A stretch of DNA of 64,000 nucleotides, from the NCBI GenBank assembly GCA_942159475.1, contig OW804095.1, positions 65,252,773-65,316,772 on the forward strand, in the 5' to 3' direction. The DNA is from Sthenelais limicola. Taxonomy: Eukaryota; Annelida; Polychaeta; Phyllodocida; Sigalionidae. How positions within the stretch are numbered: the first letter of the stretch is position 1; the number at the start of each line of letters is the position of its first letter. This document shows positions 29,070-63,506 of this stretch, piece after piece. The notes under the pieces are model-generated. The model did no database searches, had not been told where the DNA came from, and worked only from the letters and a program-made list of their open reading frames with translations. The translations under genes were made by a program, and so were the position numbers.

Positions 29070-29223
29070 TTTGTTTTGCTCATTTTTATTATTCAACTTT
29101 TATTCAGTATACACATTTATCCGCACAATAACACTCAATACAGGAAAATATATCACTTAATTATGAATATCATAGTATCAGATCACCAAGTATGGGCATA
29201 TCGATACTAAACATTCCACAAGT
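29070..29223 (-). repeat. LINE-tail-like dispersed repeat, copy 1 (minus)
   Basis: The reverse complement of 29102-29223 matches 37924-38044 over about 120 bp at roughly 85% identity, including the segment TAATTAAGTGATATATTTTC and the following TATTGAGTGTTATTG. Both copies then run into A-rich sequence with a TGAGCAA-like stretch. This looks like the 3' tail of a retroposon (LINE or SINE). The parent element is not identified. Confidence 0.65.
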
Positions 29224-30449
29224 AATAATATACTGTAAGTTCTTTCTTTTATACACCCAAGAAGTATTATGTTCATTTACAACAAGACACATTTTCTATC
29301 CATCACGGGCGCAAGTGCCTGAAATATTTTATCCGTGACGTCTTCCAATATGAGTTATCAAAAGTGATGTCGAGTCTACATTTGATATGATGTCTTTCTG
29401 AGGGGTATAGGACTGCAGAATATGTATTAATCATTTAAAAGTTTACTTATATGTTATGCGCTTAATTACCTTATTTACCAACCGTACAATGTACCACAAG
29501 CAGCTAATCGCCCCCAGAAGAATACATTCTCATTGCATGCACAATTTTGTCTGATAATCCAATACCAAAAACCAATTCAGACTCAGAGGTGGTGAGGAAC
29601 GAGGCCTCCTCCTTTTTGTAAGACAATATTCTCCACATGTCCGGAAGAAAATCAGAAATTGGGAGACCCCAGCGACCGGACTAGTCGTAAAGAAGACTCA
29701 GCCATTGCCTTGCTGAGACTCGGTGAGGAGAACAAAATTCTAATTACCTCTGTGTAACCAAGTTATTTTTGTCGGTAAATTGATGGTTTCGATTTTTTTG
29801 TGGTTGTTAAGATTTTCCTGAGTGTGAGCTCATATGGTCGAAGTGGAAACGGTGTCCTCTGTACTCTACTGTATACATGCCAATTAGTATGAGCTAGAAG
29901 TTCTGGAATATATTCTCTGATCCGGAACACTATACATCTGATGTTGGTCCTATCTGCCTTTCCAATTGTAGAAAAGAATCCACACTATATTAATTGTGCA
30001 ATAACGACATTGAAGGCTCTGCACAAAGTTGTAAAAGGCTTTTTAATGGCTGCATGTAGGCCTACATAGATCTCAAGTGAGGTTACCTGGGTATTGTTTT
30101 CCCCAAAATAATTTTTTCAAGGAAGTGATTTTGAAGCTATCTCAATGCTATTCCATTCGGAAAGTTGCACATGCTTCGATCCACTTACGACAGCTGGGCT
30201 TTACACCCAGCCTGAATTATAAAAGTGGGAAACTGCAGTGAAAACAAATAGAAGAAGGGTTAGAGTAATTATATAGAAACTACATGCTCAGTAGTACTAC
30301 CCTTTTAGACGGGGGCATCTAGTATATAATAAATACATATTCTACTTAACAGAAGTTTTGCGTAAGCCCCTGATGGAGATGATGAACCTGCTATAATTGT
30401 CTGTTTCGGATTTCACAGTTGAATGTTTCAATAGTTACATAGTTACATT
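29224..30449. other. No recognisable gene
   Basis: AT-rich DNA. The 3' part, about 30300-30449, may be decayed coding sequence of the reverse transcriptase fragment that follows, but I could not align it. Confidence 0.4.
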
Positions 30450-30569: not shown

Positions 30570-31336
30570 GGCCATCACCGAACCCAAATCGAATCGAGCC
30601 CGTTGGGATTTGACATCGACTCAACCGGACCAAAAGTAAGGGAACGAGCCGCTCCTAAATTAGACTTTATATGAGATATAAGAAATCCGAGAATATAGAC
30701 TTGTTGGTGACTAAAATACAAACAGGATAAGGATTTCCAAGGAAAAACAAACGAGGCGAGCCTTCTAGTGGGACTAACGCCGGTTATCGCCCACCCTGGA
30801 GGAAACCCCGTACGAGTGTATTAGAAGCTAATCTGACCGGAATACAAGTGGAAACAAAATATCACAAAGGTTTGACTTATAACAACGACGTGTCAAGAAG
30901 CTTAAACCCGGAATGAGACAATTAGAATATAAAAACGAACAGTGGGATTAAGCGAAGCGGGAGAACCGCAGCGCCTCACCAACATCAGCGTCGGTAGTTT
31001 GCACTACCACCCATCCTACTGGGAAACGTAGGAACTAAGAGGTAAACAACAGAGGAGAACCGGTAAGCGACCTGCATCTGCAGTCGCCAGAATAAAGGCA
31101 AATTGAGGGAGATAATTACTAATAAACATTGAAAACGGGCTTAGACATCAGACATTATCGTAAATCCCTTAAATAGTGACTCGGGATACTCAACCTGAGC
31201 ATTTCAGAAGAAAACGGTAGGAGCAAAATCGGTAACCGGAAGAGGGGTCGGCCATCTTTGAAAAGGCAAAACATTGGTCTCCCAGCTAGAATAAGGCGCA
31301 CGCAAACCGTTGCAACGCCCTGTTCGCGCTGAAGAT
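30570..31336 (+). promoter_or_regulatory. 5' UTR of the LINE, presumed internal promoter
   Basis: About 770 bp without a long frame, clearly richer in G and C than its surroundings. By analogy with other L1-group elements it should hold an internal promoter. I see no specific motif that I would name. Confidence 0.5.
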
Positions 31337-33208
31337 ATGTCAACAACGGTCAACTCTACGGAGAACACAGTGAGTAAACAAGGTGAAGTAAGCAGGAAGA
31401 GAACTAGATCTAGATCTCCTGAAGACAGTCCGACTAAAACAAGGCAGATAGCCAAAGTATCCCGCAGGTCGAAAAAGGCTGGCGAAAAAGTAAATATGGC
31501 TCATGCTATCGCCAACGATAACATTGGCCTGGACCTGACGAAGGATGATAAACCAAAACCGGAGTCTGATCACGATAATGAACAAGAAGGAGGTAAAATG
31601 TTCGAACTAATTAATAGTTTGGCTCTAGATAGGAACAAAAAATATGAAGAAGAACAAAAGAGACATCAAGAAGACCAAGAAAAGTTTCAAAAAATATTTG
31701 AAGCAATGAAAGACATAAAAGGAGTTAAAACCAAAGTAGAGAAGGTCGAAACTGGCCTACTAGGAGCTGAAAACAGGATAACAAACACAGAGAAGGGTCT
31801 CGAAGACTTCAAAAAAGAAGTCGTAGAGGAGAATGGAGCCCGAGACGAAGATATAGGGGAGCTAAGAAAAAGATTAGAAATGGCGGAGCAAAAGCTACAA
31901 GTGGTGGAAGAAAAAATGCAAGTATCAAGAGATACTGACCAAGTTCAGCTTAAAAGATCAGAAGAACAGAGAGAGAAGGAGATAGTAGACTGTGAAATGA
32001 AAAAGCTTGAAAAAAATGTTCTATTTATGGGGGTCAGATCAGGCAAGATTGAACTGAAACAAATGCTCAGAGCAAAAATGAACGATCTACTGGAAGTAAA
32101 GATGGGCCTAACGGACCTTAAAGTGGAGAAAATGTACCGCGTTGGATGGAAAGAAAACGGACCAGTGAAGCTAGAACTCGAGACGACCGATGAAGTACGT
32201 CGAGTCTTCCGAGCCAAACAGCTCCTGGAGAATAGTCAAAGCGATATACCAGAGAAAGACAGAGTGAGGGTCAGGAAGGACCTCCCTTTGTTTATAAGAC
32301 AGAGGAACCAGAGAGCGTACATGATAAAGGAAATAGCGGAGAAGAATGGCTACAAAGATGTAGTGGCAATAAGGGGAGGTGTGGTAGTAGACGGTGACCT
32401 ATATCAACACAACAGATTAGGAGCACTTCCAAAGGCCTTAATACCCTCACAAATCTCCATGAAAGAAGACCTCCATACGATCGTTTTCTTTACAGGAAAC
32501 TCACCACTATCGAATCACTACAGGGCAAGATTTATGGTAGATTCGCATCAATTCGAACACGTCGAGCAGTATATCTTTTATTACAAAGCGAAGTTCGCAA
32601 AGGATGCGGAAAAGCCTGCAATAGCTCTCGCCACTTACGATCCAGTTGAATGTAAGAGACTTATGAAAAATGTAGGAAATGATAACGGTGAATGGCTCAA
32701 TCACCGTGAAGAGCTTATAAAGAGAGCTTTGAAAGCTAAGTGCAGGGCCAGTGAGGTAGTACAAGACTTCTTACTCAATACTGGAGAAAAACTAATAGGA
32801 GAGGCCTCACCACGTGACAAAGATTGGGGGATAGGAATGGGTCTGGGTAACCCAGAAGTCCTGCAATCTGACAAATGGCCACCAAATGGCAATTTCTTAG
32901 GAAAGTGTTGGATGCTCGTCAGGCAGAGCATAAGAGATAAGCTCAAACACAAGGAGTGGATGAAAACCCATGAGGAGTCCCCAAAGAGAGGACAGAACAA
33001 GACGCCTCAAAAGACAGCAACGACAGATCAAAAGGCTCAACCCCCTCAAAAGGAAGCAACGCAAAAGACCACAGCAACAGAACAGATGGCCCAGCAGCTC
33101 CCTCAAAAGGAAGCAACGCCTCCCCACGAAAAAGCGGAAGACCAGGAAATCAAAGATGACCCACCGCAAGAAAATGGAGAGGAACCAGAAGAGATGGAAG
33201 AAGCATAA
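31337..33208 (+). CDS. LINE ORF1 protein: coiled coil, RRM-like, NADAR domain
   Basis: 623 residues from the ATG at 31337; a frame open upstream to 31310 lacks an ATG. Order: basic N-terminus; long charged coiled coil (about 75-215); L1 ORF1-type RRM-like region (about 220-365; KNVLFMGVRSG, then VEKMYRVG and KDLPLFIRQRN); NADAR (YbiA/DUF1768-like) domain (about 380-537); Lys/Gln/Glu-rich tail with repeated PQKEAT. The NADAR call rests on the ordered signature VFFTGNSPLSN, FMVDSHQFEHVEQY with Glu410, PVECKRL, a W-x5-E then RALKAKC helix, LLNTGEKLIGEASPRDKDWGIG with Asp496-Trp497-Gly498, and NFLGKCWMLVR. Known NADAR enzymes hydrolyse ADP-ribose N-glycosidic linkages, including on guanine in DNA. 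L1 ORF1 proteins bind element RNA as trimers in cytoplasmic particles. A role in removing ADP-ribose from element nucleic acid is inference. Confidence 0.85.
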   Translation: MSTTVNSTENTVSKQGEVSRKRTRSRSPEDSPTKTRQIAKVSRRSKKAGEKVNMAHAIANDNIGLDLTKDDKPKPESDHDNEQEGGKMFELINSLALDRNKKYEEEQKRHQEDQEKFQKIFEAMKDIKGVKTKVEKVETGLLGAENRITNTEKGLEDFKKEVVEENGARDEDIGELRKRLEMAEQKLQVVEEKMQVSRDTDQVQLKRSEEQREKEIVDCEMKKLEKNVLFMGVRSGKIELKQMLRAKMNDLLEVKMGLTDLKVEKMYRVGWKENGPVKLELETTDEVRRVFRAKQLLENSQSDIPEKDRVRVRKDLPLFIRQRNQRAYMIKEIAEKNGYKDVVAIRGGVVVDGDLYQHNRLGALPKALIPSQISMKEDLHTIVFFTGNSPLSNHYRARFMVDSHQFEHVEQYIFYYKAKFAKDAEKPAIALATYDPVECKRLMKNVGNDNGEWLNHREELIKRALKAKCRASEVVQDFLLNTGEKLIGEASPRDKDWGIGMGLGNPEVLQSDKWPPNGNFLGKCWMLVRQSIRDKLKHKEWMKTHEESPKRGQNKTPQKTATTDQKAQPPQKEATQKTTATEQMAQQLPQKEATPPHEKAEDQEIKDDPPQENGEEPEEMEEA

Positions 33209-33261
33209 TGCTTCTTAAATCTCTTAAAAGAAGAAACCGCGTCAGTTCCATCATGTGAATA

Positions 33262-36200
33262 ATGGAGCCTAACGTAGGAGGAAATTCAGTGATTACATTT
33301 CTATCAAATAACGTGAATGGTCTCAATGACCATAAAAAGAGAAAAAGTATTTTTTCTAGCTACTATAATAAGAATAATACCATTATTTCCCTCCAAGAAA
33401 CACATTCTGTGTTGGAGCAAGAAATAATTTGGAACATGCAGTGGAAAGGAAAAATTGTTTACAGTCATGGAAGTTCGGCTTCCAAAGGGGTATTAATTAT
33501 GATATCCAAAGATTTACAAGATTTCATTATAGAGTCGGAGGCAGACCCCAACGGTAGATGGGTTTATGTTCTACTAAATATCAATGGTGTTATAACTTGT
33601 GTAGTAAATATATATGCTCCCACAGCTGACCGTGTCAAGGAGCAAAAAGCAGTGTTAAAAATGGTTAACGAACAAATGTGTGACAAGATCTTCGACAACC
33701 TAGTGGTTGCCGGAGACTTTAATACAGACTTAACCTACAAACCAGAAGCAAAATCTAGTGCGATCCTGAGAGACTTCATATCCTCCCTGGACCTATGTGA
33801 CATTATAGCTACTATGGAGAACAAAAATGGACAACTCCCACAGACAACATGGTACAGAACCTCCCAAGAGACGAGACTAGACTATATCCTCATTTCAGAA
33901 AATATTGTTTCTAGGGTAAAAAAACATAATGTTTATACCAAAGTGTTAACGGATCACAAAGAAATATCACTCTCTGTTGCGCTAGACCTCCCATCTAGAG
34001 GAAGAGGGTACTGGAAATTTAATTCCCAACTATTGTCTGAAGATGCGTTTGTGAACGGAGTCGAACATATTGTCAAAGAGGTATCCAATTTGAAACTAAC
34101 TGATAAAACAATCTGGGAGTTTTTTAAATTGAGAGTAAGGGAGCTTGCGATAGAGATTAGTATCAATAGAGCAAGGGCCAGAAATTGTAGAAAAAGTGTA
34201 CTAACCGAAAGGTTGGAGTTATTGGATAATAAGAGGATCTTATCCAGGGAAGAATCTGATGAAAAATATTGTGTTATTAATGAGCTAAGAGAGATAGAAC
34301 TAAAGAAGGCAGAAGGGGCATTGCTCAGGTCAAAAGCCAAATGGGCAGTAGACGGTGAAAAACCGACAAAATACTTCTGTTCCCTTGAGAAATATAATTC
34401 ATCGAAAAAGGTGATTACACAAATTAAAATTGATGATGTTATGGTCACAGATAGGAAACAAATACTAAAAGAAGGGGAGAATTTCTACTCGAAATTATAT
34501 GAGTCCAAACCGAGTGATCCTACATCTGCCGGTTTGTTTATTGGTTCTAAAAACACGGTAAGATTAGATGAAGAAGATAACGATTATCTTTGTAAAACAT
34601 TCAATACGGTAGAGGCGGAGAAAGTTCTAAAGGACATGAAGGGGAACAAGTCCCCAGGTTCGGACGGCTTTACCGTCGAGTTCTATAAGTTTTTTTGGTA
34701 CTTAATAAAAGATCTCTTTTTGAAAATGATGATAAATTGTTTTCGAGAGGGTTTGATGACCGACGAACAGAGAAGAGGCCTGGTGAGTGTAATACCAAAG
34801 AAAAACAATGATTTAAATTTTATTAAGAACTGGCGTCCAATTACACTTCTAAATGTGGACTATAAGATAGTGTCAAAAATTATTGCAACCAGGTTGTCAG
34901 GTTTTTTGCCCCATATTATCAACGAAAATCAATATGGTTTCGTAAAGGGCAGATATATCGGCACGGCCGTGAGGAAGATAGATGACTTAATTTCATTGTT
35001 AGAGCTGCAGAACCGGAATGGTATAGTCGTATCCTTAGATTTTTCTAAGGCGTACGACTCCGTCAACTGGGAGTTTATGGAAAAAGCACTCCTAGATCAT
35101 AACATAAGTCAGGAGTTTGTAGAGTGTGTTAAAACTTTGCTGCGCGATTCCAAGGCAGTTTTCTGTAATAGTGGTTTCTCATCGGACTGGTTTTCGGTGA
35201 AGAGAGGGATGAAACAGGGAGATCCTGTTTCATCGATTCTCTTCACTATAGTAGTAGAAAAGCTAGCCCAGAACATCAGAGATTGTGAAGAGGTTAGAGG
35301 AATAAATGTTTTAAATCATCAGGAAAAGGTTATACAATTTGCAGACGATACCACCCTGGTGGTGAGAGATGAAGCCTCTCTGGTTCGTGTTTTCCAAATA
35401 CTTAAATCTTTCGAAACAGCCTCGGGACTGTCACTAAATCCCGGAAAATCTAATGGGTGTAAAATTGGAACCATCACATTGACGAGTGATACCATGCAAA
35501 CCATTAAATGGAGTAATAGACTCAATGTATTGGGAGTAACCCTACTCTCACCTAGAAACGAGAAACTAATGTCCAAAATTAATGGCGAGCAAGCGATTGT
35601 CAAAATGAAAGGGGTAATACATGATTGGAGGAATCGTTTCCTCTCCCTAAAAGGAAGAGTTGTTGTTGCAAATGTGTTCTTGACGTCCATCGTCCAACAT
35701 GTAATGTCGTGTATTTCTATTGATAAAACTCTGAGGAAGAAAATTGATGATATTATACTGGAGTTTGTATGGAATGGTAAACATCGAGCAATTTCGGCCC
35801 CATTTCTTACTCAAAACCTCGATATGGGTGGAATGAACCTCAGGTTGATTGAGGATATATACGAGGTTAATAGGATAAAATGGGTACAAAGAATCATGTT
35901 AAGTAGACATACTACCTGGTTTTCGGTTTTGGAAGACTGCCTTAAGAAAAATGTAGAAGACATCTTCCTCAGTAGATACCAACCTAAAATGTATATTAAC
36001 AACTTTTACAAGGAGATATTCCTGGTGTGGAATAGATACTTCTACAGTCAAAGACCGGAAGACCCTGAACAGGTCAGACGGGAGAGACTATGGTCGAATA
36101 GGTATATCAAAGTGAAAAATAAAATGCTGAATTGGCTGCATTGGAAGAATAATGGTATTAATGCCCTAGGAGATATCCTAGACGAACAGGGAAGATTGAT

Positions 36201-37062
36201 GTCAACTAAAGAGTTAAAACAGAACTACAACATTGAAACTAACTTTGCCGAGAGGATAGAACTCGCTAGAGCTATCCCCAGAGAGTGGATACTATTAATG
36301 AGAAGGTCATATGACGTACCCGACGAAGGGAAAATCTTAATAGAAATAGGGGAAGAGAAAGTTAATATCATGAACTGCTCTTCCAAAATCGTCCACCAAG
36401 CATTAATCAAGAAAAAAAGGTTGAATCTAGTGAAATTTGACAAATGGCAAGAAATATTGAGCCTATCCGATACAGAGTTTGAGAGACTAGACTGGAAGGA
36501 CACTTTCCGTAGAGTCTACCAAATCTCTGAGGAAACCAGGTTACAATCGCTTCAATATAAAATCCTTCATAAAGCCATACCCTGTAACGAACACCTGAAG
36601 AATATATCAATAAGAAGTACAAAACAATGTAGTTATTGTGCTGAAAGAGTGGATAACGTACGCCACTTCTTAGTAGAGTGCTCGAAAGCCAGATCACTTT
36701 GGCAGAATTTGTTCAATTGGATTTATGATATAGGGTACTTCAATAGAAAAGAAAATGAAGAAGAAATAATAGAAAAAATAGACAGGGTAGTGCAAATCAA
36801 CCCAATCTTGATTCTGTTAGGGGTTCCAGTCAGTAATGATGGTTCAAAAGTGATTAATTGGTTAATAATACACACCAAGTCGTTTATTCACAGACAGAAA
36901 TTGTTTTATGATAATAATTTGACGTTTATACACCTCATGAGTGAATTAAGAAGCAGACTAAACATTACCATACAATCGATTTATATCAACCCTAACAAGA
37001 AACAGAAAAGCCTCCCCTGGAGGAACCTTAGAGATGACTTCTTAACCTTCTTCAATGGATAG
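33262..37062 (+). CDS. LINE ORF2: AP endonuclease, reverse transcriptase, zinc knuckle
   Basis: 1266 residues, close to the usual L1 ORF2 length, opening with ATG and free of stops. The N-terminal APE-type endonuclease (about 10-240) shows NNVNGL, SLQETH (Glu46), NIYAPT, VAGDFN, LDYIL and TDHKEI, the metal-binding and catalytic series that nicks target DNA. The reverse transcriptase (about 440-780) shows GNKSPGSDGF, NWRPITLLN, QYGFVKGR, LDFSKAYDSV, KRGMKQGDP and the catalytic FADD (693-696). The C-terminus has a Cys-x2-Cys-x8-His-x4-Cys knuckle (1123, 1126, 1135, 1140), typical of the L1/Tx1 group. It performs target-primed reverse transcription with the ORF1 protein encoded 53 bp upstream. 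No frameshift or missing catalytic residue was seen. Confidence 0.95.
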   Translation: MEPNVGGNSVITFLSNNVNGLNDHKKRKSIFSSYYNKNNTIISLQETHSVLEQEIIWNMQWKGKIVYSHGSSASKGVLIMISKDLQDFIIESEADPNGRWVYVLLNINGVITCVVNIYAPTADRVKEQKAVLKMVNEQMCDKIFDNLVVAGDFNTDLTYKPEAKSSAILRDFISSLDLCDIIATMENKNGQLPQTTWYRTSQETRLDYILISENIVSRVKKHNVYTKVLTDHKEISLSVALDLPSRGRGYWKFNSQLLSEDAFVNGVEHIVKEVSNLKLTDKTIWEFFKLRVRELAIEISINRARARNCRKSVLTERLELLDNKRILSREESDEKYCVINELREIELKKAEGALLRSKAKWAVDGEKPTKYFCSLEKYNSSKKVITQIKIDDVMVTDRKQILKEGENFYSKLYESKPSDPTSAGLFIGSKNTVRLDEEDNDYLCKTFNTVEAEKVLKDMKGNKSPGSDGFTVEFYKFFWYLIKDLFLKMMINCFREGLMTDEQRRGLVSVIPKKNNDLNFIKNWRPITLLNVDYKIVSKIIATRLSGFLPHIINENQYGFVKGRYIGTAVRKIDDLISLLELQNRNGIVVSLDFSKAYDSVNWEFMEKALLDHNISQEFVECVKTLLRDSKAVFCNSGFSSDWFSVKRGMKQGDPVSSILFTIVVEKLAQNIRDCEEVRGINVLNHQEKVIQFADDTTLVVRDEASLVRVFQILKSFETASGLSLNPGKSNGCKIGTITLTSDTMQTIKWSNRLNVLGVTLLSPRNEKLMSKINGEQAIVKMKGVIHDWRNRFLSLKGRVVVANVFLTSIVQHVMSCISIDKTLRKKIDDIILEFVWNGKHRAISAPFLTQNLDMGGMNLRLIEDIYEVNRIKWVQRIMLSRHTTWFSVLEDCLKKNVEDIFLSRYQPKMYINNFYKEIFLVWNRYFYSQRPEDPEQVRRERLWSNRYIKVKNKMLNWLHWKNNGINALGDILDEQGRLMSTKELKQNYNIETNFAERIELARAIPREWILLMRRSYDVPDEGKILIEIGEEKVNIMNCSSKIVHQALIKKKRLNLVKFDKWQEILSLSDTEFERLDWKDTFRRVYQISEETRLQSLQYKILHKAIPCNEHLKNISIRSTKQCSYCAERVDNVRHFLVECSKARSLWQNLFNWIYDIGYFNRKENEEEIIEKIDRVVQINPILILLGVPVSNDGSKVINWLIIHTKSFIHRQKLFYDNNLTFIHLMSELRSRLNITIQSIYINPNKKQKSLPWRNLRDDFLTFFNG

Positions 37063-37253
37063 TGTTGTCATGCGATACCATGTTTGTCCTCAAGGTTTTC
37101 TTGTAAACAAGAGATTGAACACCTTCTAACTTGTTATATATATGTTAATAAACGTCTTCCAATTTATGTAGGGAGAACGATGCTAACCTAACGATTAACT
37201 CACTTCAGTAAAATGTTTAGCGATGTAGAAGCCGAGATGGCAGGATACTGTTT

Positions 37254-37281
37254 AATAAAGATGTATAAAAACAAAAAAAAA
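37254..37281 (+). terminator. LINE poly(A) signal and A-rich tail
   Basis: AATAAA at 37254-37259 is followed by an A-rich tail (AAAAACAAAAAAAAA at 37267-37281), which marks the 3' end of the LINE. The flanking pseudogene sequence resumes immediately. Confidence 0.8.
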
Positions 37282-37626: not shown

Positions 37627-37680
37627 GGAGGAATAAATACAAATATTGGACCAACCAGGCTTTGAGTCAGTCTCTACGGC
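37627..37680 (+). repeat. 54-bp direct repeat, copy 1
   Basis: GGAGGAATAAATACAAAT, then TTGGACCAACCAGGC and GAGTCAGTCTCTACGGC. It matches 37861-37914 at 53 of 54 bases, 234 bp away. It may mark the edges of a duplicated retroposon tail. Confidence 0.9.
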
Positions 37681-37860
37681 ACTGCATATGTGTAGTCGAA
37701 GCCCCAGCATTCGGCGGCCATATTGGAAAGGGGACCGATCCTAGGATCCAATCAGGTGGCAGCTTCAAGTCACTCACCTCCTCCTCGCCTTGCAGACGAA
37801 AATTTAAACTTAATTCCTCATTATTCCTCATTACTATCTATGTAACTGTATGATTCATAG

Positions 37861-37914
37861 GGAGGAATAAATACAAATGTTGGACCAACCAGGCTTTGAG
37901 TCAGTCTCTACGGC
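37861..37914 (+). repeat. 54-bp direct repeat, copy 2
   Basis: Second copy, differing by one A/G change. It is followed within 10 bp by the plus-strand copy of the LINE-tail-like repeat, suggesting that both belong to one retroposon 3' end. Confidence 0.9.
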
Positions 37915-37923
37915 GCCACATAT

Positions 37924-38098
37924 ACTTGTGAAATTTTTAATATTGATATACCCATACGTTGTAATCTGGTATTATGATATTTATAATTAAGTGATATATT
38001 TTCCTCTATTGAGTGTTATTGTACGGATAAATGTGTATGCTGAATGCATGTCTACCATCAATTGACCTCTTGTGAGCAATAAAGAATAAACAAAATAT
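37924..38098 (+). repeat. LINE-tail-like dispersed repeat, copy 2 (plus)
   Basis: Matches the reverse complement of 29102-29223 (about 120 bp). It ends with TGTGAGCAATAAAGAATAAA and an A-rich stretch, consistent with a polyadenylated retroposon 3' end. Together with the minus copy it forms a widely spaced inverted repeat around the LINE. Confidence 0.65.
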
Positions 38099-62040: not shown

Positions 62041-63506
62041 GGTGCCCAGTTGCAGACAATATCGCTCCCCTCAGTCCAACAGAATTAGGCAACTTTAACT
62101 CGAACAAGGGCCAAACCCCTGAAATCCCACGATTCCAGATTGGAGAAATCTCAAACAGCGATCTGCTTCAGATAATCAACACCTCCCCTCAGTTCAAATC
62201 TTCTGGGCTAAGTCACCTTCAAACGTCTCTCTTGAAGTTGATTCTAAGAAATTACTAGAACAATTCAAATATCTTATCCAACTCTCACTTTAATAATAAT
62301 AATGATAATAAAATTCTTTTATTTCATGACTAGGTTACAGAAAATACAGGTAGTACATGTCAGGTCTAGACCTGGTCTTCCCATGTATGCCTAGCTACTT
62401 TCCTCTAGCATAGTTCCTACCAAATGGAAAATCGGCAAGGTTAGCCCCCTTTTCAAAGCAGGTGATAAAACCTCCCCTGGAAATTACCGCCCAATCACAA
62501 GTATTTGCTTGCCAGCAAAGATCTTTGAGAAAGTCGTGCAAAAACAGCTGATGAATCACTTAACTAACCATAATATATTATACCATAGCCAATATGGCTT
62601 TAGACCGGACCACTCTACCAATGATGCGGTCACTGCCTTTCTGAGGCTTGTGTATGAATCTATTAATACCAAACAATATTGTAGAGCTGTCTTCCTGGAC
62701 TTCCGGAAGGCATTCGATACCATTGATCATGACATTCTCCTTCAGAAACTTACAAAGATTGGCTTAACAGGAACAGAACTGAACTGGTTTGCTGACTATC
62801 TCAGAGACAGACAACAACAGGTTTCTGTCAATAACCTTCAGTCTAATACCAATACCATCACCTGTGGCGTTCCTCAAGGCACCACTCTAGGCCCAGTACT
62901 ATTTTCAATATATATAAACGACTTACCCTCCCATGCTAAAAATTCTCATTTACAGTTATTTGCCGACGATACAATTATCTGCAAAGTTGGAAATAACATG
63001 AATACCATTTCGCAACACCTTCAAACCAACCTAAATAACATAATGTTATGGTGCCGAGCCAACAAAATCTCGCTTAATGAAGACAAGTCCAAAGTCATGA
63101 CCTTCCTTAATAAACCTGTCCGGAGGTCCAGGTGGTTAACTGAATCCTCTGCTTACCCTCTTACCATAGGAGCCAATCAACTTGAAGAAGTAAATGATTA
63201 TAAGTACTTAGGGACTGTCGTCGACAGTGCCCTGAACTTTGATAAACACCTAGCAAGCATTAAAAAGAAAGTTTCTCACAAACTTTATATATTACACATT
63301 TTATGACTCAGCTACTAAGTCAAAACTCAAAACTCAAATTCTTACAAATTCTTCAAAATCGCTCCCTCCGTATAATTACAAGAACCAATAGATTCCAAAA
63401 CGCTGATGATTTTCATGGGCAATTTGACCTGCTTCCACTAAAGCAGAGGAGGAGGCTCCACATTCTACAACAGGCATACAGAGTTAGAGATAATAATGAA
63501 TATTAA
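62041..63506 (+). pseudogene. LINE reverse transcriptase, frameshifted and interrupted
   Basis: A third LINE lineage. From 62041 a linker region (EISNSDLLQIIN, then SPQFKSSG) leads after a shift near 62250 and a 105-bp insertion into the polymerase: KWKIGKVSPLFK, GNYRPITSIC, QYGFRPDHSTNDAV, FLDFRKAFDTIDH, GVPQGTTLGPVLFSIYINDL, LFADDT (about 62959-62973, catalytic Asp pair intact) and YKYLGTVVD. The longest frame is 62509-63306; its upstream part is open to about 62403. A stop at 63304-63306 is followed in another frame by LQILQNRSLRIITR and LLPLKQRRRLHILQQ (63303-63506), the usual C-terminus. No endonuclease domain is present, so it is 5' truncated. The motifs suggest the CR1/L2/Jockey-like group. 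The clade is not resolved. Confidence 0.8.
62292..62396 (-). mobile_element. 105-bp retroposed tail inserted in the LINE, 5-bp target duplication
   Basis: On the minus strand it starts AGCTAGGCATACATGGGAAG, ends with AATAAAAGAATTTTATTATC and then (ATT)n, like a 3' end of a LINE or SINE with a microsatellite tail. ACTTT flanks it at 62287-62291 and 62397-62401. Removing the insert and one ACTTT makes the LINE reading frame continuous, which confirms both edges. Confidence 0.75.

Follow-up and report, generated by a model that had tools for sequence, protein, structure and literature searches.

In a 64,000-nucleotide stretch of the genome of the annelid Sthenelais limicola (hereafter the window; contig OW804095.1, positions 65,252,773 to 65,316,772), we identified a long interspersed nuclear element (LINE) whose first open reading frame (ORF1; 31337..33208, 623 aa plus stop) encodes, judging by profile matches and predicted structure, an RNA-binding protein of the L1 type (type II) whose C-terminus carries a YbiA-family NADAR domain. 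LINE features are on the + strand and are numbered from the first letter of the window, which is a stretch of contig C2 in the searched genome (1.13 Gb, 161 contigs).

The earlier note on this DNA knew of no described LINE with such a layout, a statement since overtaken by one sentence in Genome Biology 2025, according to which the ORF1 proteins of several oyster (Crassostrea gigas) Tx1 LINEs appear to hold NADAR (PMC12477816; here and below, papers are cited from the portions of their text available to us). The oyster elements share with ours a YbiA-family NADAR in a LINE ORF1, which does not imply a common lineage. Their case is a Repbase search match, presented in that portion without architecture, active-site, copy or selection data, whereas in the present genome NADAR-ORF1 additionally occurs with a non-L1 ORF2. 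As far as the open-access literature was searched, there is no further report of NADAR in a LINE ORF1; NADAR and DUF1768 are absent from the available main text of an ORF1 survey (PMC4120745), and NADAR from that of a bivalve transposon survey (PMC10294476). Ectocarpus Gypsy elements also hold NADAR in a retrotransposon protein, but these are long terminal repeat elements with the domain in Pol (PMC12477816). Invertebrate RNA viruses are likewise RNA-based parasites with NADAR in a replication protein, which, unlike a LINE ORF1, is a polyprotein that includes an RNA-dependent RNA polymerase; neither retrotransposon nor retroelement appears as a word in the available main text of that report (PMC9503650). 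Within the literature searched, the architecture, the active-site and selection evidence, the signs of recent mobility and the second LINE lineage described below are new.

Domain architecture and active site of the ORF1 protein

The order of domains is that of a type II ORF1, namely coiled coil, one RNA recognition motif (RRM) and C-terminal domain (CTD), as revealed by profile and fold comparison, with all structures of the protein being predictions. The coiled-coil region (31598..32005; approximately residues 88-223) is followed by the RRM (32006..32287; approximately residues 224-317), the CTD (32288..32470; approximately residues 318-378), the NADAR domain (32498..32935; residues 388-533; matched by Pfam PF08719, TIGR02464 and PDB 8bau) and a weakly constrained low-complexity tail of short repeats (32957..33205; residues 541-623). 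Human L1 ORF1p (PDB 2yko) likewise combines coiled coil, RRM and CTD; as a type II protein it is described in the available text of PMC4120745 without NADAR, unlike the window ORF1. The match of the ORF1 family profile to 2yko starts N-terminal of the RRM, and as a single sequence residues 122-211 match the L1 ORF1p coiled coil 6fia weakly (E 0.14). With an E<=10 threshold, a Pfam search of residues 1-371, in which HMMER filters drop weak matches, did not list Transposase_22; the profile and fold comparisons do match.

The NADAR domain scores 85.7 bits against PF08719, well over the curated cut-off of 35.1, and its predicted structure adopts a YbiA-like fold. The earlier note had proposed a C-terminal fusion of NADAR to an L1-type ORF1, to be given up if profile match or fold were lacking; both were found, and the fusion is borne out. 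In the fold alignment the domain is 27% identical to P. nicotianae NADAR (PDB 8bau), a stand-alone enzyme. Residue equivalences below come from this alignment and residue roles from PMC11543638, whose numbering, as matching residues indicate, appears to be that of the 8bau chain minus 2. Glu410 (32564..32566) corresponds to Glu43, Lys417 (32585..32587; Lys or Arg in most relatives) to Lys50, Glu489 (32801..32803) to the YbiA-type Glu125, and Asp494 (32816..32818) to Asp130; the other equivalents are Trp453 (Trp89), Arg457 (Arg93) and Trp497 (Trp133). Because Glu489 aligns with Glu125, the catalytic position on the last strand, the domain can be assigned to the YbiA subfamily. Membership in the DarT1-associated (BC4488) NADARs was considered and rejected, as the catalytic residue of that class is Asp (PMC11543638), whereas ORF1 has Glu489. 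In the E. coli C7 enzyme, E88Q was inactivating (PMC11543638).

These residues are largely kept. Among the genome's own intact copies, Glu410, Trp453, Arg457, Glu489, Asp494 and Trp497 are each invariant (26/26), and residue 417 is split between Lys (14) and Arg (12). Among 26 family rows (the window protein and 25 relatives found elsewhere, see below), Glu410 and Trp453 are present in all, Glu489 in 24/25, Trp497 in 23/25 and Asp494 in 18/25, with K at residue 417 in 16, R in 7 and other residues in 3. Thirty further NADAR loci of the genome all have Glu410 and Glu489, with 23 K, 6 R and one I at residue 417, and 24 D and 6 N at residue 494. The claim that the catalytic residues are kept is thus upheld by the alignment and by invariance across copies. 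The aspartate, however, has to be reassigned: the earlier note took Asp496 for the family-conserved one, yet it is Asp494 that aligns with Asp130, and Asp496, present in 26/26 genomic copies, occurs in 0/24 other relatives with a residue at that place.

Copies, relatives and selection

The element is not alone in its genome. A search with its ORF1, in which 71 of 5546 candidates were scored (so that the counts are minima, and some copies are broken up into several rows), returned at least 82 match rows. At least seven copies, the window's included, are 97-100% identical, and the remaining rows range from 37 to 89%. Of the 82 rows, 66 cover 100 or more of the 146 NADAR residues, and all 61 rows that span the RRM extend to residue 388 or beyond, 7 of them stopping short of residue 533. 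ORF1 is at least 600 aa long in 26 of 30 loci fetched, and the first 480 residues of ORF2 are matched downstream in all 30, in some partially. Six copies (L006-L011) have a common 5' start, which lies further 5' than that of the window copy. Their flanking sequences differ, and they are bounded by duplications of 19 (L006), 16 (L007), 15 (L009), 14 (L010) and 15 bp (L011) as detected by script, and of 13 bp (L008) as read by eye; the one at L010, rich in A, carries less weight, and A's at the start of a duplication may be part of the tail. The sequences thus indicate that the NADAR-ORF1 LINE is present in many copies, some of them recent. Insertion at a specific site was also considered and rejected, since flanks and duplications differ among these six copies and reveal no shared target.

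To follow the family beyond this genome, 5.8 billion proteins were searched with a two-row alignment query. We found 25 proteins, including P0003, itself one of the two query rows; with the window's, all 26 rows have a Pfam NADAR match at E<=0.01, and relatives that retain the N-terminal part also align across RRM and CTD. Judged by ORF1 homology alone, the 25 relatives would be LINE ORF1 proteins. The same protein search with the whole window ORF1 (P0001), in which P0003 first turned up, gave one match only and that with its residues 224-545 none, and P0001 had no match in the viral contigs searched.

Trees of the RRM-CTD and NADAR parts, built from 21 of the 26 rows after five fragments were dropped, have 6 of 18 branches in common, compared with an average of 0.11 and at most 2 across 1000 shuffles, suggesting that the two parts were largely co-inherited. 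The window row sits on a very long branch (3.3) of the RRM-CTD tree, and its placement is unsure. As to a single origin of the LINE NADARs, in a 32-row tree the 26 ORF1 rows are split rather than forming one clade (three changes), although a single ORF1 clade is not rejected with just six other rows included (p-AU 0.278). In a 47-row tree, four phage rows, the window's group and eight relatives form a supported set (96/86), which points either to more than one origin or to poor sampling.

The earlier note had proposed a comparison of dN/dS across copies. Mean identity among six representative ORF1s is 83% for NADAR, 81% for the CTD, 63% for the RRM, 47% for the N-terminal part and 32% for the tail. 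Under a codon model (11 sequences, one fixed tree), the ratio omega is 0.084 for the N-terminal part, 0.025 for the RRM, 0.016 for the CTD, 0.020 for NADAR and 0.487 for the tail (residues 541-600), rough values given that synonymous sites are saturated between families; in five close pairs the NADAR omega is 0.020-0.062. These sequence comparisons indicate strong purifying selection on the NADAR domain. That the domain was captured just once, the outcome named in the earlier note as undoing its proposal, or is a decayed passenger of one insertion has nothing in its favor beyond the late 5' start of the window copy, and the genomic match rows, their coverage of NADAR, the 25 relatives elsewhere and the omega of 0.020 led us to reject it as having practically no chance of being correct.

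A second LINE lineage in the same genome carries the combination too. Of the 30 top-scoring NADAR places examined, 28 have a LINE ORF1 part upstream, and behind the 30 NADAR loci of this second search the N-terminus of the window ORF2 has no match; NADAR-ORF1 is here paired with a non-L1 ORF2. By sequence, two LINE lineages or more carry NADAR-ORF1, a finding that bears on ORF1 exchange. In part of the second lineage (L045, L046, L048, L054, L055, L061, L062 and L066), a short open frame follows NADAR-ORF1, and where downstream sequence was fetched it precedes endonuclease-reverse transcriptase frames. Its start we take to be SGNH-hydrolase-like; two of these short frames are without a Pfam match and one is without a good PDB match. 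The short SGNH-like frame of L072 has neither a Pfam match nor a PDB match better than E 0.23. Three other NADAR matches lie in open frames of just 162 aa (G000:C1:94855254-94855679, 89380390-89380815 and 66983187-66983612) and could be host NADAR exons or belong to another element.

Possible roles of the NADAR domain

ADP-ribosylation of nucleic acids is an established anti-phage weapon, and NADARs can erase ADP-ribose marks. We propose that, on the LINE ribonucleoprotein (RNP), the ORF1 NADAR may act as an ADP-ribosyl N-glycosidase, with removal of host ADP-ribosylation as the benefit, and we put the probability of this reading at roughly 45%. The domain, kept on the RNP by ORF1p, would cleave ADP-ribosyl (or ADP-ribose-like) linkages as an N-glycosidase; host transferases would add ADP-ribose to LINE RNA, cDNA, target DNA or RNP proteins, NADAR would strip it, and reverse transcription and integration could then go ahead. 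The activity is suggested by the active site and by the biochemistry of related NADARs (PMC11543638, PMC11125620), and the benefit, a further step of inference, has a parallel in RNA viruses (PMC9503650). If the enzyme works, it would suggest that the host ADP-ribosylates nucleic acid or RNPs of retrotransposons, and NADAR would be an added enzyme domain for LINE ORF1. Guanine-ADP-ribosylating enzymes, CARP-1 among them, are named in the available text of PMC11543638, according to which it has yet to be confirmed by experiment that NADARs erase these marks, and NADAR roles across eukaryotes, animals included, are called unclear in PMC11125620.

Several observations weigh against this enzymatic role. 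The kept residues would also be compatible with binding, or with a different substrate such as riboflavin intermediates. The adenine-stacking Tyr84 of 8bau aligns with a gap in ORF1, and in the family rows the equivalent of Arg457 is Arg in just 4/26, 3/26 have Glu or Met at residue 417, Trp497 is replaced by Phe in 2, and Lys takes the place of Glu489 in P0023 (1/25 rows with a residue there). Arg at residue 417 in the 12 genomic copies also counts against it, as a K95R NADAR lost rescue of cells from DarT1 (PMC11543638). The saturation that makes the omega values rough belongs here as well.

Alternatively, the domain might bind ADP-ribose and steer the RNP to places where PARPs are active, such as nicks and breaks, aiding target choice, with catalysis dispensable. 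The ADP-ribose site is mostly retained, and PARP has links to L1 retrotransposition. However, Glu410 and Glu489, located at the distal ribose, match the tryptophans in their invariance across the genomic copies (26/26 each) and are nearly invariant among the family rows, and binding alone may not need them; we regard this role as quite improbable. Even less can be said for a metabolic role as in E. coli YbiA, removing harmful riboflavin intermediates without direct use in retrotransposition: a parasite has little cause to maintain a housekeeping enzyme in its RNA-binding protein at an omega of ~0.02, and NADAR was mostly co-inherited with RRM-CTD, making this very unlikely.

The domain could also serve RNA handling rather than defense, acting on RNA ends or intermediates that derive from NAD or ADP-ribose, or helping contacts with messenger RNPs near the cap. 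The nematode SNA-3, an essential trans-splicing and RNA-metabolism protein linked to CBC-ARS2, has three NADAR domains and is impaired by mutations of conserved residues (PMC9303266); processing of RNA intermediates is likewise guessed at in PMC12477816, and the RRM and CTD of our ORF1 resemble those of L1 ORF1p. However, nothing in the present data ties the domain to RNA ends, and the substrate of SNA-3 is left open by its authors in the available text (PMC9303266), so that we consider this role rather unlikely. As for the de-ADP-ribosylase role, its wider form, in which a functional enzyme against host-made ADP-ribose (on RNA, cDNA or RNP) sits on the RNA-binding protein of LINEs from more than one clade, seems to us possible but on the doubtful side. 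If true, it would imply an unrecognised host ADP-ribosylation defense against retrotransposons, a counterpart of DarT-type anti-phage defense.

The LINE copy in the window and its surroundings

The window copy (30570..37281) runs from the first base common to other copies, by blastn against L006-L011, to the end of its A-rich tail, read from the sequence. Its 5' start is ~216 bp later than in these full-length copies, and no duplication was found at its ends. Fifty-three bases after ORF1, ORF2 (33262..37062, 1266 aa) encodes an apurinic/apyrimidinic (AP)-type endonuclease (33310..33957; PF03372, E 2.4e-10), a reverse transcriptase (34792..35544; PF00078, E 9.1e-39) and a zf-RVT domain (36505..36702; PF13966, E 1.7e-7). 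Among solved structures, ORF2 is closest to human L1 ORF2p (277 bits, residues 5-868), compared with 73 bits for the best R2 entry; with AP endonuclease and reverse transcriptase in one frame nearest to L1 ORF2p, the element falls, by that comparison, in the L1/Tx1 group.

Scans of the 64-kb window for tRNA and Rfam families gave no matches. A 123-nt inverted repeat (29102-29224 and 37923-38045, 89% complementary, 8.7 kb between arms) flanks the LINE and probably represents two copies of a dispersed repeat outside the LINE proper. Shortly 3' of the LINE, a 63-nt repeat occurs at 37627-37689 and 37861-37923 (94% identical, 234 bp apart). A further reverse-transcriptase fragment at 62482-62943 has 24% identity to ORF2 residues 523-674 (E 1.5e-8), and the matched stretch is open. 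Long GA-rich stretches at 1-437 and 720-1215, each terminating in GACGGGTACTTTGCTAGT, resemble the end of a repeated mobile element.
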